64,000 nucleotides of DNA from Actinomycetes bacterium. GTDB lineage: Bacteria; Actinomycetota; Actinomycetes; Nanopelagicales; Nanopelagicaceae. The translations under genes were made by a program, and so were the position numbers. Where the stretch lies: contig OX376642.1 of NCBI GenBank assembly GCA_947383695.1, positions 992,001 through 1,056,000 on the forward strand. Direction: 5' to 3'. Below the pieces are notes generated by a model, which was not told the origin of the DNA, did no database searches, and worked only from the letters and a program-made list of their open reading frames with translations. The stretch's first letter is position 1; each line of letters starts with the position of its first letter. Positions 1 to 14,058 of the stretch are shown here, one piece after another.

Positions 1-118
1 CGTGACCAAAAGTGAATGAATCCGGGCTGTAATCTTCTTGTGGTTTGCTTGTAAATGGGAAGTCGAGTGTGAAGTAGTAATCCTCTTCCTTTAACTTCTT
101 TGGACCAAACAAACCCAT
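1..118 (-). CDS. Partial hypothetical protein (5' end only)
   Basis: The complementary strand has a start codon at 118-116 preceded, nine bases upstream, by a clear GGAGG. The frame stays open to the window edge for 39 codons. The visible N-terminus begins MGLFGPKKLKEED and is rich in aromatic and acidic residues (YYFTLDFPF). I do not recognise the family. It is transcribed divergently from the DUF4190 gene; the good ribosome site is the main reason to call it real. Confidence 0.55.
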   Translation of the reverse strand, partial: MGLFGPKKLKEEDYYFTLDFPFTSKPQEDYSPDSFTFGH

Positions 119-189
119 TTCGAGAACCTCCACAAATAGTCAGAAATTTTTTGACTTCTAAAGACTACCTTTTAGCCCGGCAAACGGTC

Positions 190-195
190 TATATT
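190..195 (+). promoter_or_regulatory. -10 element, leaderless promoter of the DUF4190 gene
   Basis: TATATT lies exactly six bases before the ATG at 202, so transcription would begin at or next to the start codon. This decides the start over an upstream in-frame TTG at 100, which would overlap the divergent gene. Confidence 0.6.
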
Positions 196-201
196 CCATT
201 C

Positions 202-480
202 ATGACACTTGAAGTAAATGAGAACCTTGAAGAAAGAGCGAAAGACCTAGCCATTTCATCTCTTGCCGTTTCAATATCCTGTATTTTCATGACCGCCGGA
301 TTACTTTCATTCATTGGGGCCATTATTGGACATATCGCCTTAGGAAAGCTGAAGAGCGTCGGGAACACATCACACACTGGTTTTGCAATTGCAGGGATAA
401 TTATTGGATATGTGGCAACTTCACTGTGCCTTTTATTGATTATCGGTCTATTTATGGCGGTCGGCTTAGCACTAATTTGA
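202..480 (+). CDS. DUF4190-domain small membrane protein
   Basis: A 92-residue protein with a soluble, acidic N-terminus of about 15 residues and two hydrophobic segments. Between them is a GHIALGKLK motif followed by GFAIAGIIIGYV, the signature of DUF4190, a two-helix membrane domain common in Actinobacteria and of unknown function. The start is set by a TATATT hexamer six bases upstream and by the absence of a Shine-Dalgarno sequence. It is followed by a strong terminator, so it looks monocistronic. Confidence 0.7.
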   Translation: MTLEVNENLEERAKDLAISSLAVSISCIFMTAGLLSFIGAIIGHIALGKLKSVGNTSHTGFAIAGIIIGYVATSLCLLLIIGLFMAVGLALI

Positions 481-498
481 TGTGAAGATCACTAAACC

Positions 499-536
499 AA
501 AACCCCCCACATCTCTCACGAGATGTGGGGGGTTTT
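499..536. terminator. Bidirectional rho-independent terminator
   Basis: A perfect 17-bp inverted repeat (AAAACCCCCCACATCTC and its complement) around a TCAC loop, flanked by A-tracts and T-tracts on both sides. It separates the converging DUF4190 and DUF805 genes and can serve both. Confidence 0.9.
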
Positions 537-552
537 GACTTTTAATATCTGC

Positions 553-867
553 TTATAGATCGCCGTACTTGTTTGTGCCTGGATTACTTGCAGTGCAAGC
601 AAGAACAAGGTTGTAAATAGGTACAAGAATGAACCAACCGGATCGACCTGTGTCATGCATGCGGCGAATTCCTACAGCTAGCTGAGGTAGCCATAGTGGA
701 ATGATGAACAAGTACATCAGGGCCGAGGTGCCCACTGCGGCGGCAACAACAGCACCGACCAAGTACATGATTATGTAAAAGAGATAGAAGAACCAGAACT
801 CGCTCCGACTAGCTCTTCCAGTAAATGTTGCATACTTCTTTAGACATACGGAAATTGCATTGCCCAT
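553..867 (-). CDS. DUF805 membrane protein
   Basis: A 104-residue protein matching the short form of DUF805. It has KKYATFTGRASRSEFW near residue 10, a hydrophobic central region, RRMHDTGRSGWF near residue 68 and a C-terminal NPGTNKYGD. The family is an inner-membrane protein of unknown function with three to four helices. The start is supported by AAAGGAGAG just upstream, so this gene uses a conventional leader, unlike many neighbours. A TATTAAT stretch further up may be its -10 element. It converges on the DUF4190 gene. Confidence 0.88.
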   Translation of the reverse strand: MGNAISVCLKKYATFTGRASRSEFWFFYLFYIIMYLVGAVVAAAVGTSALMYLFIIPLWLPQLAVGIRRMHDTGRSGWFILVPIYNLVLACTASNPGTNKYGDL

Positions 868-1069
868 AAGGCTCTCCTTTGCGTAGGTTATTAATAGGGT
901 AGAACAACAATCGCCAGATGTCTCGCACCTAATGCGCCCTTTCCCATCGTGTTGCTGTTCAATTTTTATGAATGGTCAGTTACGCATTTGGCGGGCCCTT
1001 CGCAAGATATTCCATTCCTTTTTGCGCAGAGGTCGACTACCCTCATTTCAACCTAAGCAAAGGAGCGGT

Positions 1070-1261
1070 ATGAAGATTTATAAGGTTATGACACAGAAGG
1101 ATCGTGCCTTCGGAGGAAAGTTCAACCCTGAAAAAGTGGAAGAAGCTTTGAACGGACTAGCGAAAGAGGGCTGGGAAGTCACGGGAGTGGTTTCAGCAGA
1201 GTTCCCTTCTTTCGGCGGTGGCCGCCAAGAATTAGTGATTTTCTTAGCTAAGGACGTATAA
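1070..1261 (+). CDS. DUF4177-like small protein
   Basis: A 63-residue protein (MKIYKVMTQKDRAF...) with the short beta-rich pattern of DUF4177: a first strand, then LNGLAKEGWEVTGV and a closing strand ELVIFLAKDV. Function is unknown. The frame is open upstream to 932, but AAAGGAG lies five bases before the ATG at 1070 and the upstream translation is Arg/Cys-rich and not protein-like, so the short form is preferred. It is followed after 34 bases by another small gene and may be co-transcribed with it. Confidence 0.72.
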   Translation: MKIYKVMTQKDRAFGGKFNPEKVEEALNGLAKEGWEVTGVVSAEFPSFGGGRQELVIFLAKDV

Positions 1262-1295
1262 ATTGATCGAGAAGTTTGGAAGAAAAGGCACTGAA

Positions 1296-1538
1296 ATGAA
1301 AGGTGTCTTTTTCACTGAAGGACCAATTGCTACTGGGAAAGTAGTTGGTGACGGTATGGTTTCTTCAGATCGTCAAAATATTTCAATTGAAATTCTCAAG
1401 GAAAAGATGGCAGATCAAGCCTTAGCTAAGGGTGCGAATGCCGTTGACAATTGGAAGTATGTTCAAAAGGGCTCTGTGTGGTCTTTTTCAAGTACTCGAT
1501 GGGTTATGACAGGGCGATTGTTGCACGTTGAAGAATAG
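1296..1538 (+). CDS. Hypothetical protein, possibly YbjQ-like
   Basis: An 80-residue protein with a central LKEKMADQALAKGANAVDNW and a closing strand WVMTGRLLHVEE. The order (strand, helix with an AxxxGANAV pattern, strands) recalls YbjQ-type putative metal-binding proteins, but the match is loose. A TTG at 1263 gives a longer frame; the ATG at 1296 with an AAGAAAAGG stretch upstream looks better. It lies between the DUF4177-like gene and a small membrane-protein gene on the same strand, probably one short operon. Confidence 0.55.
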   Translation: MKGVFFTEGPIATGKVVGDGMVSSDRQNISIEILKEKMADQALAKGANAVDNWKYVQKGSVWSFSSTRWVMTGRLLHVEE

Positions 1539-1558
1539 TTTCTTTTTAGGAGGAAGAA

Positions 1559-1744
1559 ATGCAAGGGTTCGGAGTTTTACTGTTTATGTGGGGCGTGCTT
1601 GATTACTTTATGGGAACTCAAGAGGTCGATGTTTACTACGACTGGTTTGGTATTTATCTTCCAGATGCAATTTACAATTACTCTCACTGGCTAGCTATGG
1701 GACTTGGAAGTATCATTTTTGCAGCTGGGAATAAAAGTAAGTAA
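1559..1744 (+). CDS. Small membrane protein
   Basis: A 61-residue protein with two likely membrane segments (residues about 3-18 and 44-57) separated by a Tyr/Asp-rich loop (EVDVYYDWFGIYLPD). TTAGGAGGAAGAA directly before the ATG is an excellent ribosome site. It starts 20 bases after the preceding gene. I do not recognise a family. Confidence 0.65.
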   Translation: MQGFGVLLFMWGVLDYFMGTQEVDVYYDWFGIYLPDAIYNYSHWLAMGLGSIIFAAGNKSK

Positions 1745-1748
1745 CTAC

Positions 1749-2303
1749 CTAACGAACGGTTTCTTGTAGGTATTCTTCGATTTCAGAAGTTAACTTTTCT
1801 ACGTTGCCTGGAGTTAACTCCAACTCCATCAAGACGTACGCACCTGAAATATTTCCGCCTGTACCACCGGCCCAAACAGAGTTCATTCCGGAAGTGTTCT
1901 GAAGTAAGGTTCCGAAGGTTCTTGGTACGAGTCCGACAACCCGCCATCCCTCGAGTCCAGATAGGCGCACATTTGCATCATCGTACGCACCAAAATTAAA
2001 TGAGCCCCCTGTAAGTTCTGAATCAACATTTATGTATTCGGTCTTGTGCAAATAGCACTTAAAGCCTGCTTTTACATCGGCAAGAATTCGCTGGTGCTCC
2101 TCGGTGATTCGATTCTGGCGGGCATTTTCTCTAACTTCTTTTTGCGCTGCCGCTTCTTTCGATTGGTCTTCGAATCTCTTCATCTGGCATGAGCCGCACT
2201 CGGTCGCCAAAAAGCCTGCCTTACCTCCACATGTTGTGCATGCTCCCACTTGAAAATCTCCACTCTTTAAGTAATTAAAGCTATGACCAGGAATTATGAC
2301 CAA
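1749..2303 (-). CDS. Zinc-ribbon protein with C-terminal DUF4177-like domain
   Basis: A 184-residue protein. A CxxC...CxxC zinc ribbon (CTTCGGKAG, then CGSCQMK) occupies residues about 20-42. A charged, probably helical linker follows (residues 43-80), then a region with SGLEGWRVVGLVPRTFG and a final YVLMELELT strand. That C-terminal pattern resembles DUF4177. The only early start is TTG at 2303, just after an in-frame stop; the next ATG would remove the zinc ribbon. Function is unknown. Confidence 0.62.
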   Translation of the reverse strand: MVIIPGHSFNYLKSGDFQVGACTTCGGKAGFLATECGSCQMKRFEDQSKEAAAQKEVRENARQNRITEEHQRILADVKAGFKCYLHKTEYINVDSELTGGSFNFGAYDDANVRLSGLEGWRVVGLVPRTFGTLLQNTSGMNSVWAGGTGGNISGAYVLMELELTPGNVEKLTSEIEEYLQETVR

Positions 2304-2377
2304 AAGCTATATGCCTAGTCAATGAAAATCGTAGACAATAATGACTAGGGATGGATTGACTGATCATGGGGAGAGCT

Positions 2378-3268
2378 ATGAGAAAAGTAAAGGCGTACGG
2401 CGAGATACTGGAAATTCCTGATCATAGAATCTTTTGGCTTTCCCGAATTGTGTACAGCTCCCCCTTTGAGTTAACTATTGCTTTTGTAATTCTGCTCAAC
2501 GCAATCTCACTTGGTTTATTAACCATGCCCGGGATTTCAGACAATGCAAGGGTTACCTTTGAGACTCTTGATAGGTATGCGCTTTATGTTTATACCGGCG
2601 AACTAATCTTGCGCTTGATCTCATATGGAACCAAGCCATGGGAGTTTTTCCGTAGAAGTTGGAACATTTTCGATTTCCTCATTGTTGCCCTGTCTCCAAT
2701 CTTTTCAGGACAAATCGTTATTCTCCGATTACTGAGATTATTGCGCCTAATTCGTATCTTTAGATTCTTGCCAGAGGTACGAGTTTTAACGGTTTCGATT
2801 ATTCGTTCAATTCCACCATTGCTCAGTATGGGTGTTTTGATTTTCTTAGCGCTATTCATTTATGGAATGGCGGGCGTTTACATGTTTGGCGAGAAATTGC
2901 CTCTTCACTGGGGAGATATTTCTATTGCACTTACAACTCTTTTCATTCTTTTAACATTAGAAAACTTCCCAATTTACCTTGAGGAAGCTGTGCTTGTGAG
3001 TCCTTGGGCTTTGCCTTTCTATCTTTCCTATATTTTCATCATTGTCTTCACCGTTTTGAATGTATTAATTGGAATTGTTTTGAATGCAATGGATGAAGCA
3101 AGGAATGAGAATCGTCAAAGAATTGAGAAGATTAAACAGCTAGATGAGATTGTTCATGAGGTTGATGACATGACCGCAGACGGCAAGGTCACAGAAGAGG
3201 AAATTAAGCACCTCAGAGAGAAAATACGAACTCTGGAGCGTTTGGCTGCAGGAAAGCAGGAGCAGTAA
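2378..3268 (+). CDS. Single-domain voltage-gated cation channel (BacNav-like)
   Basis: A 296-residue ion-transport protein with the six-segment plan of bacterial voltage-gated sodium channels. Segments S1-S3 cover residues about 28-108. The S4 sensor (RLLRLLRLIRIFR) carries five arginines at three-residue spacing (about 117-129). A pore loop TLFILLTLENF (filter at about 193-197) and S6 follow. The last 55 residues are charged and coiled-coil-like, as in channels that tetramerise through a C-terminal bundle. The filter reads TLENF rather than the TLESW of characterised BacNav channels. GGGGAG upstream favours ATG 2378 over ATG 2366. It would act in the plasma membrane; ion selectivity cannot be read from sequence. 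Confidence 0.85.
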   Translation: MRKVKAYGEILEIPDHRIFWLSRIVYSSPFELTIAFVILLNAISLGLLTMPGISDNARVTFETLDRYALYVYTGELILRLISYGTKPWEFFRRSWNIFDFLIVALSPIFSGQIVILRLLRLLRLIRIFRFLPEVRVLTVSIIRSIPPLLSMGVLIFLALFIYGMAGVYMFGEKLPLHWGDISIALTTLFILLTLENFPIYLEEAVLVSPWALPFYLSYIFIIVFTVLNVLIGIVLNAMDEARNENRQRIEKIKQLDEIVHEVDDMTADGKVTEEEIKHLREKIRTLERLAAGKQEQ

Positions 3269-3290
3269 AGAGTTAACGATCTTTTGGAGT

Positions 3291-3536
3291 TTAACTCTTA
3301 AGTTCTTTGATTTTTTCAACGACCTGCTTGGCAGATGGGTTCGTCATCGCGGTTCCATCAGAGAAAACAAGCGTTGGGACTGTGCGGTTGCCGCCGTTTA
3401 CCTTTTCAACGATCTCGGCGGTGCCTGGAACCTCTTCGATGTTGATCTCTTCGAAGGTAACGTCCAGCTCTGCTAATTGAGACTTAAGACGTTGGCAGTA
3501 GCCGCACCATGTAGTTGAGTACATAACGAAGGACAT
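3291..3536 (-). CDS. mrx1: Mycoredoxin (glutaredoxin-like)
   Basis: An 81-residue thioredoxin-fold protein with the redox site TTWCGYC (Cys11, Cys14), the cis-Pro region RTVPTLVF and the C-terminal helix NPSAKQVVEKI. CGYC with GGNRTVPT is typical of actinobacterial mycoredoxin-1, which reduces mixed disulfides of proteins with mycothiol. This implies the organism makes mycothiol (inference). The frame is open upstream to 3668, but that extension overlaps the divergent CPBP gene and is not protein-like. Confidence 0.85.
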   Translation of the reverse strand: MSFVMYSTTWCGYCQRLKSQLAELDVTFEEINIEEVPGTAEIVEKVNGGNRTVPTLVFSDGTAMTNPSAKQVVEKIKELKS

Positions 3537-3613
3537 TGCGACTACTTTCCGTTGAGGTTGCTGAAGTTTAGGGGCAATCCCCCCTTTGGCGCGCATTTGT
3601 CGGTGGGTGGGGC

Positions 3614-3619
3614 TAGATT
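3614..3619 (+). promoter_or_regulatory. -10 element, leaderless promoter of the CPBP gene
   Basis: TAGATT ends six bases before ATG 3626, and no Shine-Dalgarno sequence is present. Confidence 0.6.
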
Positions 3620-3625
3620 TTTGGC

Positions 3626-4420
3626 ATGAGGACATTGCGGATGTGGGTCGGGCTGATTGGGCTCTCACTGCTGTCCATTGTGATTTTGAACTTTTCAGGT
3701 GATGCCGTTCCCGGTGATCGTTTTGATGGAACTGTTAGTTACTTTGTTTTGGCCTTGTTCTCCTTCGCTGTGATCTGGTGGCTACGACCAGCAACATTTG
3801 CCTACATTGCACTTCCTGCATTTGGATGGAGATTTGTTATTGCCTTTGTTTTTATGGTGAATCTGATTGTTGTTCAGATTCAAGGCGAGGAATTCTCTGG
3901 GGTGACCACGGAAAAATGGATACGTGGAGTTATCTTTTTGATACTGGTTGCTGTTGCAGAAGAGATCTTTAGCCGCGGAATTGTCTTTGGTGTATTGCTG
4001 CGGCATGGATTAACGGTGGCTGTGATTGGCTCATCGTTGATGTTTGGGTTGATGCACATCAACACTTACATCGGAAACTTTGATGCCTGGCCTGCGTATT
4101 GGCATGTTATGTCAGCTGCCTCCTTTGGAATCTTTGCCTGTGCTTTGATGGTGCTGACCCGAAGTATCTGGATGCCGATTGTTTTACATGCCTTTTCTAA
4201 TGCTGGGTTGTTAATCACTTCAGCTGAAGATGTGCAGGCCGAGCGTGATTCAAATACCTCAGTTGAATTCTTCACAGGTTTGCTTCATCCGCTGCCTGCC
4301 TTTGCGACCTTTGTGATTCCATCCTTGATTATGTTCTGGATTGCAGCCGGTATTCCGTTGCATTCCCGCTTGCGCCAGTTGGCTATTAAATGGAAGTTAA
4401 TCGAGGTTAATCAAGGGTAA
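3626..4420 (+). CDS. CPBP-family intramembrane metalloprotease
   Basis: A 264-residue membrane protein with about seven or eight hydrophobic segments. The CPBP (Abi/CAAX) motifs appear in order: EEIFSRG (Glu112, Glu113, Arg117), FGLMHINTY (His144, Asn146) and a later VLHAFSN. These place the zinc-type active site within the membrane. Family members process prenylated proteins or act in bacteriocin immunity and stress; the substrate here is unknown. It diverges from mycoredoxin and its 3' end overlaps the S51 peptidase gene by 14 bases. Confidence 0.85.
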   Translation: MRTLRMWVGLIGLSLLSIVILNFSGDAVPGDRFDGTVSYFVLALFSFAVIWWLRPATFAYIALPAFGWRFVIAFVFMVNLIVVQIQGEEFSGVTTEKWIRGVIFLILVAVAEEIFSRGIVFGVLLRHGLTVAVIGSSLMFGLMHINTYIGNFDAWPAYWHVMSAASFGIFACALMVLTRSIWMPIVLHAFSNAGLLITSAEDVQAERDSNTSVEFFTGLLHPLPAFATFVIPSLIMFWIAAGIPLHSRLRQLAIKWKLIEVNQG

Positions 4421-5126
4421 TAACTTGGCCATCATGGAGCTGCTGATCTGGAAGTCCTTTTAAGACATGAACCTTTGCTTCGCCGACGACGATCCAGTGT
4501 TCGGAACCTGAGCGCTTAACAATCGCCGTTAGCTCATCGACTCCAATAAGAATTGAATCGTTGGGAACATGCAACAAAACCGTGGCTGCACTTTCTGGAA
4601 TCCACTTAAAGAACTTATTGAAGTGCGGGATGACACGGATTTCTGGAAGCAGGTTTAAACCAGCGGTTGGTGATTTCTTGAGCAAGCGAAAGTTTGGAAT
4701 CTGGGCCGATAGAACCATCGCACCTGCGCTGCATCCGGCAAGTGATGCCCCGCTTTGCCAATTTTCAACAATGGCGGTCCAGACAGGTGTATCGATTAAA
4801 ACCTCTGCAAGATGGTGTGGATCTCCTCCGGACATGTACATCAGTGCGCTGTTCTTAATCGCATCAACATGTTCTTGCTTAAATGCATCATCGCGGGTGT
4901 AGATCGGAAGGTGAACAGCTGTAACTCCTAAAGCATCTGCTTGAGTTTGGCCGAGTCTTTTCCAGTAATTCAGACTGTCCTGGCTTTCGCGGCCGGCAGC
5001 GGTTGGGATTTGAATGTAGCTCGCGGCTTTACCGTTTTTGATTCCATCGTCGAGCAAGGTTTTTTCAAAGGCGGTCATGGCAGGCAGGTATTCGCCCGAT
5101 CCAACTAACGCCAATGACCCGTTCAT
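4407..5126 (-). CDS. Peptidase S51 family protein (dipeptidase E/cyanophycinase-like)
   Basis: A 239-residue protein with the S51 plan: an N-terminal LVGSGEYLP, YMSGGDPHHL near residue 97, and the nucleophile elbow GCSAGAMVLS with Ser133. A His in VIPHFNKF near residue 165 completes a plausible catalytic pair. Relatives cleave Asp-X dipeptides or cyanophycin; which applies is not clear. The frame is open upstream to 5246, but TACACT six bases before ATG 5126 and the start of the conserved fold there support the shorter protein. Confidence 0.78.
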   Translation of the reverse strand: MNGSLALVGSGEYLPAMTAFEKTLLDDGIKNGKAASYIQIPTAAGRESQDSLNYWKRLGQTQADALGVTAVHLPIYTRDDAFKQEHVDAIKNSALMYMSGGDPHHLAEVLIDTPVWTAIVENWQSGASLAGCSAGAMVLSAQIPNFRLLKKSPTAGLNLLPEIRVIPHFNKFFKWIPESAATVLLHVPNDSILIGVDELTAIVKRSGSEHWIVVGEAKVHVLKGLPDQQLHDGQVITLD

Positions 5127-5132
5127 GGAGCC

Positions 5133-5138
5133 AGTGTA
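5133..5138 (-). promoter_or_regulatory. -10 element, leaderless promoter of the S51 peptidase gene
   Basis: TACACT on the minus strand, separated from the ATG (5126) by six bases. It fixes the start. Confidence 0.6.
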
Positions 5139-5246
5139 GGTCCACAAAACTGCGCAAATTTTGGGAGTTTTTTGGGAATCTCTTACTGGTTGAGCGCTTT
5201 TCAAGTAGTGTGACGGCAAGTTTTGGAGAGAAACGGGGTTAGCCAA

Positions 5247-6272
5247 GTGAGCTCACAGGGTTCAGTCATTATCTCCCTGCGTGGCTTGGCAAAAAGTTTT
5301 GGCGCAGTCCGCGCAGTAGATGGTGTTGATCTCGATATATACCAAGGTGAGTTTCTTACTCTTTTAGGACCATCTGGATCAGGCAAGACAACTGTTCTTC
5401 GAATGATTGCAGGATTTGAAGCACCTGATGCAGGAACTATTCAACTTAATGGCGCTGACATAACTCATCTGCCTGCGTATGAGCGAGATGTCAATACTGT
5501 TTTTCAAGATTATGCGCTCTTTCCTCATATGGATGTCATTTCAAATATTGAGTATGGCCTGCGCGTTAAAGGAATTGGCAAGAATGAACGCCGTGAACAG
5601 GCGATGGTTGCCTTGCAACAAGTTCGCCTTGAAGGGTATGAGAGTAGAAAACCAAATCAGTTATCTGGTGGACAACGTCAACGTGTTGCTTTAGCGCGTG
5701 CATTGGTCAATCGTCCTGCGGTGTTATTGCTTGATGAACCACTTGGTGCGCTGGATCTAAAGCTGCGCGAGCAGATGCAGATTGAGTTAAAAGAGTTGCA
5801 GCGCCAAGTTGGAATCACCTTTATTTTTGTCACACATGATCAAGAGGAAGCGCTCACCATGTCAGACCGAGTCGCTGTTTTTGATCGCGGAAAGATCCAA
5901 CAACTAGATAAGCCTTCAGCGATTTATGAACGTCCAGCAAACTCATTTGTTGCCGGCTTTGTCGGTATCTCTAATTTGATTTCAGGTGAGGCTGGTCAGA
6001 AATTATTGGGTAAGCCTGGAACGTGGCTTGTTCGTCCAGAAAAGATCGAGATTGATGCGCAGGTGCCAGGCGGACGAAGCACTACTGGTGTAATCCGCGA
6101 GGTTGAATACCTTGGGCCTGCAACCCGTTTCTTAGTTGATTTAGAGGGTGGTATCTCATTGATGGCGCTTCGTCAGAACACTTCAGAGAGTGCAAACACC
6201 GTGGCTTCAATGCGAAACAGCACGGTAAAGGTCAGCTGGAGCATCGATAGCGAGTTCCATGTAGAAAATTAG
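5247..6272 (+). CDS. potA: Spermidine/putrescine-type ABC transporter ATP-binding protein
   Basis: A protein of about 341 residues with an N-terminal ABC ATPase and a C-terminal TOBE-like domain. Visible are Walker A GPSGSGKTT, the Q-loop VFQDYALFPHM, the signature LSGGQRQRVALARAL, Walker B VLLLDEPLGALD and the switch VTHDQEEAL. With potD, potB and potC it forms an importer for polyamines or related small amines, energised by ATP at the inner face of the membrane. A TAGTGT hexamer at 5206-5211 would start a transcript near 5218, which favours GTG 5247 (GGGG eight bases upstream) over TTG 5223. Confidence 0.9.
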   Translation: MSSQGSVIISLRGLAKSFGAVRAVDGVDLDIYQGEFLTLLGPSGSGKTTVLRMIAGFEAPDAGTIQLNGADITHLPAYERDVNTVFQDYALFPHMDVISNIEYGLRVKGIGKNERREQAMVALQQVRLEGYESRKPNQLSGGQRQRVALARALVNRPAVLLLDEPLGALDLKLREQMQIELKELQRQVGITFIFVTHDQEEALTMSDRVAVFDRGKIQQLDKPSAIYERPANSFVAGFVGISNLISGEAGQKLLGKPGTWLVRPEKIEIDAQVPGGRSTTGVIREVEYLGPATRFLVDLEGGISLMALRQNTSESANTVASMRNSTVKVSWSIDSEFHVEN

Positions 6273-6353
6273 GATTCTCAACTAGCTAGCAGTTGAGGAA
6301 CGCGCTGGAAATTCTGGCGCGATGTCGCAAAGGAGCGACAGAAAGGAACGCGA

Positions 6354-7532
6354 GTGAAGATCACACGAGTTCGAAAGTCCGTAATTGCAATTGCGGCAGG
6401 AGCGCTACTACTGAGCGGATGTTCAAGTTCAGATAGCGAATCCGCAGGCGGTGCGTACGCAGGTCCTGTTAAAGATACCCCCGGAACAATCAATGTTCTC
6501 GCTTGGCCAGGATACGCAGAAGATGGTTCAACAGATCCAAATGTTGACTGGGTAACACCTTTTGAAAAAGAAACAGGTTGTACGGTTAATGTAAAGACAT
6601 ACGGAACATCTGATGAAGCTGTTCAATTGATGCAAAGTGGTGGCTACGATGTGGTGAGCGCCTCTGGAGATGCATCTCTTCGCTTAATCTTCGGTGGAGA
6701 TCTACAGCCAGTTAATTTGGATTTGATTCCAAATTACGCAGATGTATTCGATAACTTGAAGGACCGTCCTTGGAACACAATCGATGGTGCAAACTACGGC
6801 GTACCTCATGGTCGCGGAGCAAATGTTTTGCAGTACACCATCGACAAGGTTAAGCCAGCACCAGACTCATGGTCTGTTGTCTGGGAGCCAAACTCTCCAC
6901 TTAAGGGCAAGATCACAGCATATGACTCAGCAATTTACATTGCAGATGCAGCTGTGTACCTAATGTCTACAAAGCCAGAGCTTGGAATTACAGATCCATA
7001 TGCACTTGATCAAACACAGTTTGATGCAGCGATGGCATTGCTCAAGCAGCAGAAGCCATTAGTTGCTGAGTACTGGGCTGATTACACCAAGTATGTGGCT
7101 GCTGTTCAGGCAGGAAGCATTGTCGCTGGAACTTCATGGCAGGTTATTGCCAATGTTCTTAATGGCGAGAAGGCAACTGTTGGCGCTGTTAAGCCTAAGG
7201 AAGGCGCAACAGGTTGGTCAGATACTTGGATGATCTCTAAGAACACTGAGTCAATTGACTGTGCTTACAAGTGGTTGAACTGGATTATTTCTCCAGCAAC
7301 TAATGCACAAGCTGCTGAGTACTTTGGTGAAGCACCAGCTAACTCAAAGGCATGTGCACTAACTGCAAGCAAGACACACTGCGAGTCATACCATGCAGAA
7401 GAGACTGACTACTGGTCAAATGTCTACTACTGGAAGACTCCAACAGAAGAGTGCCTAGATGGACGTACGGATGTTAAATGTATTCCGTATGCCGAATGGG
7501 TTAAGGCTTGGTCAAGCTTTAGAAACTCTTAA
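6354..7532 (+). CDS. potD: Polyamine-type ABC transporter substrate-binding lipoprotein
   Basis: A 392-residue lipoprotein. The first 25 residues are a signal peptide ending in the lipobox LLSGC, and a Ser-rich linker follows. The mature part is a type II periplasmic-binding fold of the PotD/PotF kind (INVLAWPGY, PHGRGANVLQY, AGTSWQVIANVL). It would sit on the outer face of the membrane and deliver the ligand to PotBC. The GTG start is supported by GAAAGGAAC. The C-terminal third contains several cysteines, some probably disulfide-bonded. Ligand class is inferred from family; spermidine or putrescine is likely but not proven. Confidence 0.9.
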   Translation: MKITRVRKSVIAIAAGALLLSGCSSSDSESAGGAYAGPVKDTPGTINVLAWPGYAEDGSTDPNVDWVTPFEKETGCTVNVKTYGTSDEAVQLMQSGGYDVVSASGDASLRLIFGGDLQPVNLDLIPNYADVFDNLKDRPWNTIDGANYGVPHGRGANVLQYTIDKVKPAPDSWSVVWEPNSPLKGKITAYDSAIYIADAAVYLMSTKPELGITDPYALDQTQFDAAMALLKQQKPLVAEYWADYTKYVAAVQAGSIVAGTSWQVIANVLNGEKATVGAVKPKEGATGWSDTWMISKNTESIDCAYKWLNWIISPATNAQAAEYFGEAPANSKACALTASKTHCESYHAEETDYWSNVYYWKTPTEECLDGRTDVKCIPYAEWVKAWSSFRNS

Positions 7533-7540
7533 TCGGTAGG

Positions 7541-7574
7541 TGATGTGGGCACTTGGTTTCAGGTGCCCACATCA
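7541..7574 (+). promoter_or_regulatory. Intercistronic hairpin between potD and potB
   Basis: A perfect 12-bp stem (TGATGTGGGCAC with its complement) around a 10-base loop lies just after the potD stop. There is no run of T after it, so it is a poor terminator. It more likely blocks 3' exonucleases and keeps the binding-protein message abundant relative to the permeases, or gives partial read-through. Confidence 0.7.
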
Positions 7575-7611
7575 CGTCGATTTCTTAACAACATGAAATG
7601 AATCAAAAAAA

Positions 7612-8478
7612 ATGAGCCTAATGACAAACACGCGTCGATACTTTCACTCCCATGTGAAGGCTCGAATCGCTGCGCTTTTGTCCTTGCCAATTGCATGGCT
7701 TGGTGTTTTGTATATCGGTTCTCTCGCGGCACTGTTCATCACAAGTATCTGGAAGATTGATACCTTTACGAGCAAGGTCGTCCGAGAGTTCACTCTTTCA
7801 AACTTTATCGATGTTCTAACTGACAAGGCTTATTTCAATGTAACAATGAGAACCGTCGGCGTTGCAATCGCTGTAACAATTATTTGTGCAGTCCTTGCAA
7901 TACCTATGGCTTTCTTTATCGCCCGAGTAGCAAAACCAAAGTCTCGCCCGGTATTGATCGCGCTAGTGATCACTCCCCTGTGGGCCTCTTATTTAGTAAA
8001 GATCTACGCATGGCGCACGATGATGGCTCCAGATAGTGGCTTCTTAAACTGGTTGATCTCTCCCCTTGGTTTATCCAGCCCCGGCTTTGGAATGGTTGCG
8101 GTAATCATTGGCCTTTCTTATCTCTGGCTTCCATACATGGTGCTTCCAATTTATGCAGGTATGGAAAAACTTCCAGATTCCATCATCGATGCTTCAGCTG
8201 ATTTGGGTGCAAAGCCAGGACGCACCTTTCTTAAAGTGATTTTGCCAATTACTTGGCCGGCGATCATCGCTGGATCCTTGTTCACCTTCTCTTTGAGCCT
8301 TGGTGATTACATCACCGTTCAAATCTTGGGTGGAACCTTCCAGATGCTTGGAAATGTGGTGTATCAAAACTTTGCGCTCAATCTTCCCTTTGCTGCAGCT
8401 GTTGCTTTGATTCCCGTTATCGTCATGTTTATCTATCTTGGCTCCGTAAGAAAGACGGGAGCGCTCGATAACCTATGA
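7612..8478 (+). CDS. potB: Polyamine-type ABC transporter permease
   Basis: A 288-residue inner-membrane permease with six predicted helices. The cytoplasmic EAA-type loop reads DASADLGAKPGRTFLKVILP (from about residue 192), where the ATPase docks. The Y-x-V-K-IYAWR stretch near residue 125 is typical of the PotB branch. It overlaps potC by four bases (ATGA), so the two subunits are translationally coupled. It follows the potD hairpin after 37 bases. Confidence 0.9.
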   Translation: MSLMTNTRRYFHSHVKARIAALLSLPIAWLGVLYIGSLAALFITSIWKIDTFTSKVVREFTLSNFIDVLTDKAYFNVTMRTVGVAIAVTIICAVLAIPMAFFIARVAKPKSRPVLIALVITPLWASYLVKIYAWRTMMAPDSGFLNWLISPLGLSSPGFGMVAVIIGLSYLWLPYMVLPIYAGMEKLPDSIIDASADLGAKPGRTFLKVILPITWPAIIAGSLFTFSLSLGDYITVQILGGTFQMLGNVVYQNFALNLPFAAAVALIPVIVMFIYLGSVRKTGALDNL

Positions 8479-9263
8479 ATCTTTCTCGTACCGCTCGCAT
8501 AGTCCTTTGGGGCTTCATGGGCTTTGGTCTCTCATTTATCTATGTTCCATTGATGTTGGTTGTGATCAACTCATTTAACAAGAACAAGTCCTTCAATTGG
8601 CCTCCAACTGGATTTACGACGATGTGGTGGACAAAAGCTGCATCTAACTCGGGTGTGAAGGATGCAATCCTGCTATCTGTATTAACTGCGTCTTTAGCAA
8701 CAATCATCGCCCTGATCTTGGGTTCTTTAGCCGCGGCAGCTATAGCCCGCTATAACTTCTTTGGTCGCGATGTGATCTCACTCATGTTTGTCCTACCGAT
8801 CGCACTTCCTGGAATCGTTACAGGTATTGCTCTGAACAATGTATTTACCAACTTCTTTGGTGGTTTAACCTTCTTTACAATCATTATCGGCCACGCGACA
8901 TTCTGTGTGGTTGTTGTTTTTAATAACGTTGCAGCTAGATACCGCAGAATGGGTGCAACCTTTGAAGAGGCAAGTATGGATTTAGGTGCTAACCGCCTGA
9001 CCACTTTCCGCTTAGTTACCTTTCCAATGATCCGTAACGCCCTGGTGGCGGGAGCGCTGCTGTCATTTGGCTTGTCCTTTGATGAAATTATCGTGACAAC
9101 CTTTACCGCGGGTGCAGGTCAAACCACCTTGCCTATTTGGATCTTCCAGAATCTCTTCCGCCCAAATCAAGCGCCAATCGTCAATGTGGTTGCAGCGGCA
9201 TTGATTGTTGTTTCAATCATCCCTATTTATCTATCGCAACGATTAACGCAAGAACGCAAATAG
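8475..9263 (+). CDS. potC: Polyamine-type ABC transporter permease
   Basis: A 262-residue permease with six helices. It begins with the FIYVPLMLVVINSFN segment seen in PotC proteins and carries the EAA-type loop EASMDLGANRLTTFRLVTFP (from about residue 157). It pairs with PotB to form the translocation path and starts inside the potB stop. It is the last gene of the operon and ends 11 bases from the converging heliorhodopsin gene, with no clear terminator in the gap. Confidence 0.9.
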   Translation: MNLSRTARIVLWGFMGFGLSFIYVPLMLVVINSFNKNKSFNWPPTGFTTMWWTKAASNSGVKDAILLSVLTASLATIIALILGSLAAAAIARYNFFGRDVISLMFVLPIALPGIVTGIALNNVFTNFFGGLTFFTIIIGHATFCVVVVFNNVAARYRRMGATFEEASMDLGANRLTTFRLVTFPMIRNALVAGALLSFGLSFDEIIVTTFTAGAGQTTLPIWIFQNLFRPNQAPIVNVVAAALIVVSIIPIYLSQRLTQERK

Positions 9264-9274
9264 CTGGCTATCTG

Positions 9275-10036
9275 TTACTCAAACAGAGTTCCGACAAATA
9301 CCTGCCATGCAAGCGCTGACTTTGCGATCAATGAAAGCGTTATATAAGTCTTTTCACCACGTAGGTAATCAGACCACTTTCCAACCTTCTTGTATTGCAG
9401 GTATTGAACAACTGCAAAGGTATTGAAGAGTACGAAGAGGGAAATAACGATTCCATACACAAAGGCTGGGGCCTTTGCATTTGCTGGTCCCCCGATTGCA
9501 AGAACATAGAAAACAAGTCCTAACCAAGGAACGATTCCTGCGATGCAACCAAAGATAAATGGAACCCAGCCACCATTTCCTGGTGTCTCATACTTTTCCT
9601 GCAACCAACCAAACAAAATCATGGAAGCGTTAACGCCAAAGATAGAGATGATCGCAACTACATCTGAAACTCCGCAGATCTGAGCGATAAGAACAATCAT
9701 CACAGAAGAGCTCACTGAGTACTCAACCCAGCGGAAGTAATTGCGATTTTGTGCAAGGCCAGCGCTATAGCGAGGGAAGAACTTAGGTGATGCGACTAAG
9801 AAATGGAAGAAAGCAGAGAGACCTAGGAATAGTGCAACGCCGATACCAACTGGTGTATTCAGCAGTGTGATTGGTTCTGCAAAGGTGCTTCCTGGAGGGC
9901 CGGACATGTAACGAGCAACAATCGGCAAGGTGAAGTCATTGGATAGCGCCAAGACTGCAACCATTTGAAGTAAGTGGAATACGCCGGCAATGATGTTGTA
10001 GCGGCGTAGCTTTGAATTGTTGATCTCTTTACTCAT
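9275..10036 (-). CDS. Heliorhodopsin
   Basis: A 253-residue seven-helix protein that matches heliorhodopsin rather than type 1 rhodopsin. The retinal-binding lysine lies in AKSALAWQ (Lys239), the counterion glutamate in RWVEYSVSSS (Glu105), and the family histidines in VFHLLQ (His21) and FFHFL (His78). These equal Lys241, Glu107, His23 and His80 of the founding protein 48C12, shifted by two. Heliorhodopsins bind retinal with an inverted topology (N-terminus inside), do not pump ions and have slow photocycles; a sensory or enzyme-regulating role is suggested. It lies 17 bases behind a UbiA gene and also has its own leaderless -10 element. Confidence 0.96.
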   Translation of the reverse strand: MSKEINNSKLRRYNIIAGVFHLLQMVAVLALSNDFTLPIVARYMSGPPGSTFAEPITLLNTPVGIGVALFLGLSAFFHFLVASPKFFPRYSAGLAQNRNYFRWVEYSVSSSVMIVLIAQICGVSDVVAIISIFGVNASMILFGWLQEKYETPGNGGWVPFIFGCIAGIVPWLGLVFYVLAIGGPANAKAPAFVYGIVISLFVLFNTFAVVQYLQYKKVGKWSDYLRGEKTYITLSLIAKSALAWQVFVGTLFE

Positions 10037-10042
10037 GTGAAA

Positions 10043-10048
10043 AGGGTA
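10043..10048 (-). promoter_or_regulatory. -10 element, leaderless promoter of heliorhodopsin
   Basis: TACCCT on the minus strand is followed by six bases and the ATG at 10036. It fills most of the 17-base gap after the UbiA stop, so heliorhodopsin can be made from its own transcript besides read-through. Confidence 0.5.
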
Positions 10049-10053
10049 TCTGA

Positions 10054-10704
10054 CTACATGGTTAAGTAAAGTGCCAAAACCCCTAATGCAATCAGTGTTA
10101 TCGCAACAAAGACCGATCTCTTGGTTCCAAGTCTTTGCGGAAGGCCTTGAATTCCGCTTACTTGATCCTCTTCCATATCTTTGATGACATTGATGAAATG
10201 TGCGGCCATTCCAAAGATTGATCCACCGAGCAACATCCAGAGCGGTGGGGTGATCCCTTTTGAGATTGCGATGGATGAAGGAAGTGCGGCAAAGGCAATT
10301 GCAAATGGCAAGGGTGAAAAGGCAGAGAACTTAAAGTAGAAGTTATAGGCAACACCCCATGCGATGCCGAACATGTAAACAAGGCCACCTTTAATTCCAA
10401 GCGGACCAAGTAGGTTTGCGATGAATGAAAAAGGAACCATAAAACGCAACCACTTAGTTAAGTACTGCGGTGTAATTAGTCCAGAGACAAGTGGTTTGTT
10501 TGTGCGTCCATGCGCAAGATCATCTTTGTAGTCATATAGATCGTTACTCCAACCGACTACTAATTGTCCTAATGCGACAGTCAAAGCGATGACGTACGCG
10601 GGGCCTTCCCACCAGTAATAAGTTCCGAAAGCAAAAGCGATCGTCGTGACGATTACCGTAGGCCCAAAGTGACAAGCCTGCTGTAACCCGCGTAGCTTCT
10701 TCAT
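10054..10704 (-). CDS. UbiA-family prenyltransferase
   Basis: A 216-residue membrane enzyme with about seven helices. The first Asp-rich motif is NDLYDYKDD followed by GRTNKPLVSG. The second is KDMEEDQVSGIQGLPQRLG. Both bind Mg-prenyl diphosphate in the UbiA superfamily, which attaches isoprenoid chains to aromatic or other acceptors and includes menaquinone, heme O and carotenoid-elongating enzymes. At 216 residues it is shorter than most of these, and its acceptor cannot be told. TAGACT seven bases before ATG 10704 sets the start over ATG 10722. Heliorhodopsin follows after 17 bases, so a shared transcript is likely. Confidence 0.82.
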   Translation of the reverse strand: MKKLRGLQQACHFGPTVIVTTIAFAFGTYYWWEGPAYVIALTVALGQLVVGWSNDLYDYKDDLAHGRTNKPLVSGLITPQYLTKWLRFMVPFSFIANLLGPLGIKGGLVYMFGIAWGVAYNFYFKFSAFSPLPFAIAFAALPSSIAISKGITPPLWMLLGGSIFGMAAHFINVIKDMEEDQVSGIQGLPQRLGTKRSVFVAITLIALGVLALYLTM

Positions 10705-10711
10705 GGTTTTT

Positions 10712-10717
10712 AGTCTA
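10712..10717 (-). promoter_or_regulatory. -10 element of the UbiA-heliorhodopsin operon
   Basis: TAGACT (minus strand) with seven bases to ATG 10704. It lies 14 bases from the opposite-strand -10 element of trhO, so the two promoters overlap. Confidence 0.55.
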
Positions 10718-10731
10718 TCCATCTAAGGCGT

Positions 10732-10743: not shown

Positions 10744-11652
10744 ATGGATCTCGACAAAGTAATTCTGTATTACGGCTTCGCGCCGATTGCAGATACTGAT
10801 GCTGTGAAGTTATGGCAAAAGACTTTATGTGAGTCGCTCGGAATTAAGGGTCGCATCATTGTTTCACCTCACGGTATCAATGGAACTTTGGGCGGAAAGA
10901 TGGAAGATCTGAAGAAGTATGTGAAGGCAACAAAGGCATATCCAGGGTTTAAGAAGATCGACTTCAAATGGTCTGATGGAACTGGCAATGACTTTCCAAA
11001 ACTCAAGATCAAGATTCGTCCAGAGCTGGTTGCTTTTGGAAACCCAGATGAGATTAAGGTTGATGAGAACGGCGTAATCGGCGGTGGAGTTCATCTTCGC
11101 CCTGAGGAAGTAAACAAGCTTGTTGAAGAGCGTGGCGATGATGTCTTCTTCTTTGATGGCCGTAACGCGTTTGAAGCAAAGGTTGGAAAGTTCAAGGATG
11201 CAGTTGTTCCTGATGTTGAGACATCACATGACTTTGTTGCAGAAATTGAAAGCGGCAAGTACGACCATATGAAGGACAAGCCGGTCGTTACCTACTGCAC
11301 GGGTGGTATTCGCTGTGAAATCTTGTCTGTGGTTATGAAGAACCGTGGATTTAAAGAGGTTTATCAGATTAAGGGCGGAATCGTTCGCTACGGAAACAAG
11401 TTTGGCGATGACGGTCTGTGGGAAGGTTCCCTGTATACATTTGATGATCGCCTAACAATTGATTTCAGTGACCACACTAAGTTGATTGGTGAATGTGCTG
11501 AGTGCAATGGCGCTACAAAGCAGTTTAGAAACTGCCAAAAGGCGGAATGTCACCAGTTGGTTTTACTATGCGATCCTTGCTACGACACTCACACTGAGCG
11601 TCCTTGCAATCATGAGCGCGAAGTTAAGCGCAACCGCGAACTGATCGGTTAG
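10744..11652 (+). CDS. trhO: tRNA uridine(34) hydroxylase (rhodanese domain)
   Basis: A 302-residue TrhO/YceA-type protein. An N-terminal acylphosphatase-like domain (GRIIVSPHGINGTLGG) is followed by a rhodanese domain with the loop YCTGGIRCE (Cys185 and Cys191). A Cys-rich C-terminus (CAECNGATKQFRNCQKAEC, CDPCYDTH) probably binds zinc. TrhO uses oxygen to make 5-hydroxyuridine at the wobble position of tRNA. It is transcribed divergently from UbiA with only 39 bases between starts, and 13 bases separate it from the kinase gene downstream. Confidence 0.9.
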   Translation: MDLDKVILYYGFAPIADTDAVKLWQKTLCESLGIKGRIIVSPHGINGTLGGKMEDLKKYVKATKAYPGFKKIDFKWSDGTGNDFPKLKIKIRPELVAFGNPDEIKVDENGVIGGGVHLRPEEVNKLVEERGDDVFFFDGRNAFEAKVGKFKDAVVPDVETSHDFVAEIESGKYDHMKDKPVVTYCTGGIRCEILSVVMKNRGFKEVYQIKGGIVRYGNKFGDDGLWEGSLYTFDDRLTIDFSDHTKLIGECAECNGATKQFRNCQKAECHQLVLLCDPCYDTHTERPCNHEREVKRNRELIG

Positions 11653-13858: not shown

Positions 13859-13866
13859 ATCAGTGG

Positions 13867-13939
13867 TAGCCCCGAAGGGATTCGAACCCTCGTAGCTGGC
13901 TTGAGAAGCCAGAGTCCTAGGCCGCTAGACGACGGGGCC
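13867..13939 (-). tRNA. tRNA-Glu (anticodon CTC)
   Basis: A cloverleaf with acceptor GGCCCCG (first pair G-U), anticodon stem CTGGC/GCCAG and loop TTCTCAA, and T-arm GGTTCGAAT. The 3' CCA is encoded (13864-13866). It lies 47 bases downstream of tRNA-Gln. Confidence 0.93.
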
Positions 13940-13986
13940 GCGCTTGTAAAACTAGGACAGATATTAAGTTGTACTTCTTTACTGCG

Positions 13987-14058
13987 CTGGGGTACCAGGA
14001 CTCGAACCTAGACTTACTGAACCAGAATCAGCAGGGCTGCCAATTACCCCATACCCCA
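13987..14058 (-). tRNA. tRNA-Gln (anticodon CTG)
   Basis: A cloverleaf with acceptor TGGGGTA/TACCCCA, discriminator G, anticodon stem GCTGA/TCAGT and loop TTCTGGT, and T-arm GGTTCGAGT. The U1-A72 first pair is typical of tRNA-Gln. CCA is not encoded. It lies between gltX and tRNA-Glu, probably on one transcript. Confidence 0.92.

Follow-up and report, generated by a model that had tools for sequence, protein, structure and literature searches.

A heliorhodopsin gene away from glutamine synthetase that keeps glutamine synthetase contact residues and a predicted leaderless promoter

Can the genes that surround a heliorhodopsin (HeR) identify the protein on which it acts? The question is raised by a stretch of 64,000 nucleotides of actinobacterial DNA (contig OX376642.1, positions 992,001 to 1,056,000; hereafter the window), in which a HeR gene adjoins a UbiA-family prenyltransferase gene. 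A first, sequence-only reading of the window took this neighbor as a lead on function and described the physiological role of heliorhodopsins as unknown. The latter statement is partly outdated, as several partners have been published, namely glutamine synthetase (GS; PMC9529153), an ABC transporter (PMC11109279), and a photolyase (PMC9769723). The neighbor argument underlies the partner studies PMC9529153 and PMC11109279. The window's genus provides a natural experiment, with HeR inside a GS operon in some genomes and HeR elsewhere, with the residues reported to bind GS kept, in others, and comparing both genome types can decide whether neighbors identify HeR partners. The protein of the window is one of many in a known family, and its interest lies in the comparison of these two contexts.

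The gene (9275..10036, minus strand) encodes 253 amino acids from an ATG start and is confirmed as a complete heliorhodopsin, an ordinary member of its family. It scores 333.5 bits over the whole Pfam model PF18761 (cut-off 26.7) and 348.6 bits with the NCBIfam equivalog NF038020 (cut-off 100), whereas the type 1 rhodopsin model PF01036 gives 13.1 bits at a loose threshold, under its cut-off of 24.6; the other rhodopsin of the same genome (C1:276882-277565) reaches 134.4 bits with the type 1 model. In phmmer searches, the protein aligns without gaps to the 48C12 chains 6su3, 6uh3, and 9ljj (E about 1e-113), with 167 of 244 aligned residues (68%) identical to 48C12. Residue 9 pairs with residue 11 of 6su3, an offset of two, so that Lys239, Glu105, His21, and His78 correspond to Lys241, Glu107, His23, and His80. 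These four residues are invariant in the 81 rows of an alignment of the window HeR with 80 relatives. The family assignment proposed from sequence alone, the four diagnostic positions, and the expected preference for heliorhodopsin over type 1 models are thus borne out, and both the adjoining UbiA gene and the compact genome are real, the latter a single contig of 1.43 Mb with one heliorhodopsin and one type 1 rhodopsin. Matching coordinates between named genomes and genomes assigned to the same genus, Candidatus Planktophila versatilis MMS-IA-79 (L044) with G256 and IMCC25003 (L021) with G134, place the window in or near Planktophila.

Heliorhodopsin is common in the order, with a match in 185 of 296 genomes, 184 of them over the family cut-off. 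The dN/dS of the gene is 0.037 and 0.040 against its two closest relatives (loci L003 and L004, respectively) and 0.103 against L021, at dS values of 1.0-1.3, which fits strong purifying selection. The AlphaFold model, too poor to rely on (pLDDT 53.9), shows seven long helices and one short one, with two-residue strands in extracellular loop 1; seven helices and a long extracellular loop 1 with strands are implied by the gapless alignment to crystal structures. The inverted topology, with a cytoplasmic N-terminus, would carry over from 48C12 by homology.

Twelve further positions are invariant in the 81 rows: Asn14, Gln24, Ser74, Tyr90, Arg102, Tyr106, Ser109, Glu147, Phe204, Glu228, Ser235, and Trp244. 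With two added to each number, they are the proton network and retinal pocket described for 48C12 (PMC9726877, PMC6951262). The window HeR shares with 48C12 (6su3, 6uh3), in a full-length gapless alignment, the Schiff-base lysine, the counterion, the histidines, and the proton network, and its residues indicate a likely retinal-binding protein. A single Blh-family oxygenase in the genome (145.3 bits, cut-off 95.25) gives the cell a means of producing retinal, provided that carotene is made. Two of the color-tuning positions, Gln146 and Gln211, carry the residues typical of the group with absorption above 550 nm in PMC7807009, which gives 556 nm for AbHeR; the third, Ala238 here, is uninformative, Ala being given there for both groups. 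The absorption of the window HeR may thus lie near 550 nm. By analogy with published work on 48C12, light would isomerize the retinal, presumably supplied by the Blh-family oxygenase, at Lys239, and the Schiff-base proton would move to Glu105 and then to His78/His21. This proton movement would shift the cytoplasmic network Asn14-Tyr90-Glu228-Arg102-Glu147 and so change the cytoplasmic face. As a side observation, L146 has, at 73-6117, a repetitive ORF of great length (2014 aa) upstream of its Blh gene.

GS lies upstream of HeR in 32 of 80 related loci and is absent in the other 48, the context label reflecting the genes in the sequence compared around each HeR, which extends no more than 6 kb to either side and often less. 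One locus labelled non-GS (L006) has a GS-like gene that is only 27% identical, and one labelled GS (L043) has a cut GS gene (96% identical) upstream. The order in the GS context, NAD synthetase, GS, HeR, LeuA, is the published AbHeR arrangement. Neither UbiA, nor an S51 peptidase, nor a photolyase-related gene occurs in the stretches compared for the 32 GS-context loci. A photolyase-related DPRP gene lies within the compared stretch around HeR in 9 of the 80 loci, all non-GS (L016, L023, L028, L040, L045, L047, L056, L057, and L063); the one member scanned (L040) belongs to PF04244.

On the HeR tree, where the window HeR forms one clade with L003 and L004 (SH-aLRT 100), the context label needs at least five changes, at least two of which are forced by the starred branches. 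GS and LeuA are adjacent in the window genome, with about 150 bases and no HeR between them, and GS is about 590 kb away from HeR. The same GS-LeuA site is empty in all 11 other readable genomes with HeR elsewhere and occupied in all 5 readable genomes of GS type. This survey covered 25 genomes, 5 without and 20 with a GS match at the threshold, 16 of them readable; those uncounted are G066, G067, and G068, where GS adjoins neither of the two other genes, LeuA and HeR, and G175, which is cut. The HeR gene would have been re-sited during evolution between the GS operon and a variable region, in either direction.

Residues E147, K148, E150, K216, K217, K220, D223, R226, and E228 of AbHeR (Actinobacteria bacterium IMCC26103, PMC9529153) are found under the same numbers in the window HeR, which, unlike AbHeR, is not beside GS. 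K216, K217, and K220 matter for GS binding according to the same paper. These lysines are kept in 47, 45, and 48, respectively, of the 48 other non-GS rows and in 31 of 32 GS rows each; R226 is found in 47 of 48 non-GS and 31 of 32 GS rows, and E228 in all rows. Only residue 151 differs clearly among the tested contact positions. It is most often Glu in the GS-context relatives (17/32) and Thr in the window HeR and in 23 of 48 others; E151Q is reported as a tighter GS binder (PMC9529153). Outside the contact set, a handful of positions differ between contexts, residue 61 most, which may be explained by kinship.

In our sample, gene context thus has little bearing on the contact surface, and either HeR still acts on GS in trans or the patch has a more general role. 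As the residues reported to bind GS are equally conserved without an adjacent GS, the neighboring gene probably does not define the HeR partner. The lysine patch is so conserved that it may be needed for folding or for placement in the membrane and not for a partner. The third intracellular loop reads QYKKVGKW in the window HeR and QYKGKGKW in 48C12. The ten neighbor-defined HeR groups of PMC11109279 are reported to show significant residue differences from lone HeRs, while the same source finds no specific residues when all co-transcribed HeRs are pooled.

A predicted -10 box, TACCCT (10043..10048, minus strand), ends 6 bases before the HeR ATG. In 67 of 79 loci, a TANNNT ends 6-7 bases before this ATG (31/31 in the GS context, 36/48 in the others), and YANNNT is found at these offsets in 78 of 79 (31 and 47); the counts leave aside two of the 81 HeR rows that lack an ATG where the start should be, namely L046, where the match begins inside the gene, and L080, which is offset. 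Other offset pairs give an average of 1.7 TANNNT matches in 79, the largest being 8, and a Shine-Dalgarno-like string is rare upstream of HeR (8/79). As the HeR loci are related by descent, these 67 boxes should not be counted as 67 independent events. In actinobacteria, when the -10 box occupies positions -12 to -7, the transcript begins with the A of the ATG. The -10 pattern suggests that HeR has its own leaderless promoter in both contexts, and HeR is probably transcribed as a unit of its own. Such a promoter would still be compatible with an operon. Strand-specific metatranscriptomics by Bulzu et al. placed GS/NAD synthetase-HeR and hydrolase/peptidase-HeR on shared transcripts (PMC8612252), which stands against a separate unit, since it shows that read-through from neighbors happens. 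Our search of open papers found none on leaderless heliorhodopsins, nor on leaderless genes in freshwater Actinobacteria.

LeuA served as control, with the box in 0 of 25 cases and a Shine-Dalgarno-like string in 25 of 25. GS genes do not have the box (0/32). By contrast, the box precedes NAD synthetase, which lies upstream of GS, in 24 of 24 cases, a point against the reading favored below. It is also found before S51 in 6 of 6 readable loci (of 11), in the window as TACACT (5133..5138, minus strand, 6 bases before the ATG), and before UbiA in 4 of 7 readable relatives, in the window as TAGACT (10712..10717, minus strand, 7 bases before Met7 of the ORF). Over 445 non-HeR genes (L003-L082), TANNNT peaks at offsets 6 (117) and 7 (28), with at most 20 at any other offset; every in-frame ATG within the first 60 codons was tried (878 in total), and the resulting 143 boxes include chance matches. 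With peaks at the same offsets, leaderless starts look common here and the box is not specific to HeR. The middle of the box that gives the TANCCT form occurs in 32 of 67 HeR boxes versus 15 of 145 in other genes. We also considered a HeR regulon with the motif TANCCT-N6-ATG, but 3 matches in the window against 1.5 expected, a number reached in 19 of 100 shuffles, led us not to claim one. No such box precedes the rhodopsin and Blh genes of the window genome within the upstream sequence inspected.

On balance, and with restrained confidence, we favor the reading that the window encodes a normal retinal-binding HeR, a light sensor and not a pump, which is expressed from its own leaderless promoter and signals through its cytoplasmic surface to a partner that is not necessarily its neighbor. 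This conserved surface could act in trans on a partner possibly encoded elsewhere, the candidates being first the GS elsewhere in the genome and second the S51 peptidase. More tentatively, we can imagine HeR as a portable, self-contained light-signaling gene that moves with its leaderless promoter and its conserved contact surface and has one common trans target, possibly GS, whatever its neighbors; we regard this broader version as possible rather than probable. If it were true, operon neighbors, on which published partner searches are based, would mislead.

The neighbor that prompted the question is a UbiA-family prenyltransferase gene (10054..10704, minus strand; PF01040, 63.1 bits, cut-off 34.2) upstream of HeR, on the same strand and 17 bases away in both the window and L004. 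Its start is probably Met7 of the ORF 10054-10722, where many relatives begin. A gene for the tRNA uridine hydroxylase TrhO (10744..11652, plus strand; NF001133, 242.4 bits, cut-off 170) diverges from it and adjoins UbiA in L003, L004, L013, and L019 as well. The UbiA protein reaches no NCBIfam cut-off and matches no solved structure by sequence. D61, D64, D67, D68, D182, and D186, which make up two Asp-rich motifs, are invariant in 15 aligned sequences; we take these motifs to be catalytic. It is conceivable, but in our opinion very unlikely, that HeR regulates this adjacent enzyme, with light tuning a lipid or isoprenoid product via a co-transcribed membrane pair. The shared strand, the short spacing, and the intact Asp-rich positions would suit such a pair, and as MenA and heme o synthase are other genes of the genome, distinct from the window UbiA, the latter has a free role. 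The window UbiA finds a match in 205 of the 296 genomes, and at least 64 genomes of the genus are listed with both UbiA and HeR. Among the matches listed, 30 genomes have both on one contig, at less than 10 kb in 16, which speaks for a link, but at less than 2.5 kb in only 7 and less than 200 bp in 2, the window and one close relative; these distances concern the window's genus and, as for S51 below, omit second matches, fragments, and some UbiA rows of lower identity. The absence of UbiA from the GS-context stretches and the apparently separate -10 boxes of HeR and UbiA in the window also argue against regulation, as does the closest relative found, L003 (HeR 93% identical), which carries another UbiA (59% identical) fused to a hydrolase, the stop of the fusion overlapping the HeR start. 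We conclude that the adjacent prenyltransferase does not hold up as a functional lead. It is a weak clue to the role of HeR, since relatives keep HeR by quite different genes, while the predicted start signal and the charged inner surface are constant. Our literature search for heliorhodopsin with prenyltransferase returned one paper, in which the prenyltransferase is named among carotenoid genes.

A closer candidate within the clade is the S51 cyanophycinase-like peptidase (4407..5126, minus strand), which gives 348 bits with the cyanophycinase-like exopeptidase 6nqc and stays under the NCBIfam cut-offs for cyanophycinase and PepE; its ORF spans 4407-5246, and the start was set at the Met where relatives begin. 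As the partner in this clade, it would let the sensor govern amino acid release instead of glutamine synthesis, a possibility that we rate as rather unlikely, though worth keeping in mind. The clade of the window HeR has 9 members, each with S51 in its locus. Among the matches listed, from which S51 matches of 54% identity or less are omitted, 28 genomes have both genes, 16 on one contig and 12 on different contigs; the one-contig distance is less than 200 bp in 10 and less than 2.5 kb in 14 of the 16, in either orientation, and 4.0 kb in the window. S51 is therefore a more regular close neighbor of HeR than UbiA in the clade. The link is not general, given the 12 of 28 genomes with different contigs and the 350 kb between both genes in G255. 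In addition, 6 of the 14 close pairs among the matches listed are on opposite strands, S51 has its own -10 box, in the window it lies behind a transporter cassette, and a shared gene-exchange hot spot would yield the same pattern. The gene order of L004 (HeR 91% identical) is TrhO in one direction, followed by UbiA, HeR, a hydrolase, and S51 in the other, and in L019 both S51 and a DCC gene are close to HeR. The DCC assignment comes from a scanned member in L060, and DCC is presumably the former DUF393. The class 2 transcripts of Bulzu et al. (PMC8612252), on which hydrolase, peptidase, and DUF393 genes occur together, speak for S51 as a partner and resemble both loci, as matched by gene names only. 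Unlike these transcripts, the window has the transporter cassette where the hydrolase would be. Last, a light-driven proton transporter, as published for the giant-virus heliorhodopsin V2HeR3 (PMC9448325), seems extremely improbable here, as 48C12, with which the window HeR shares 68% of 244 aligned residues, is neither a pump nor a channel (PMC6951262) and the genome already holds a type 1 rhodopsin.

The contexts seen here have counterparts in the survey of PMC11109279, which sorted 448 heliorhodopsins into ten operon groups, including GS, NAD synthetase, photolyase, and alpha/beta hydrolase, all of which we see near relatives of the window HeR; its main text mentions neither UbiA nor a prenyltransferase. 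UbiA and a PHB-depolymerase/feruloyl-esterase-like hydrolase share one frame at L003:4286-6001 and L082:10528-12012, and further UbiA frames of about 490-580 aa in relatives may be more such hydrolase fusions.

The transporter cassette consists of potADBC-like ABC transporter genes (5223..9263, plus strand) between HeR and S51, where L004 has its hydrolase; no hydrolase of the L004 type turned up in the window, nor in its genome, where the search had no positive control. PotADBC was rejected as a HeR partner, the cassette occupying the place of the L004 hydrolase gene. Close PotD proteins are encoded in G200, G175, and G176 (94-99% identical), with a 95% identical fragment in G177. DNA identities of the pot region (80.6-93.8%) are in line with those of other genes, so we do not claim a recent transfer. 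The same S51-pot junction occurs in G200:C54 (93.8% DNA identity over 3600 bases), and similar cassettes are present in G175 and G176. A tRNA integration hot spot was considered and set aside: a predicted tRNA is found in 13 of 34 non-GS and 0 of 6 GS loci, in stretches of differing lengths, which by our own estimate is close to what the tRNA density would give. A tRNA-Glu and tRNA-Gln pair lies at 13864-14058 of the window, between the HeR region and a gltX-like gene, and the same pair is seen in L019.
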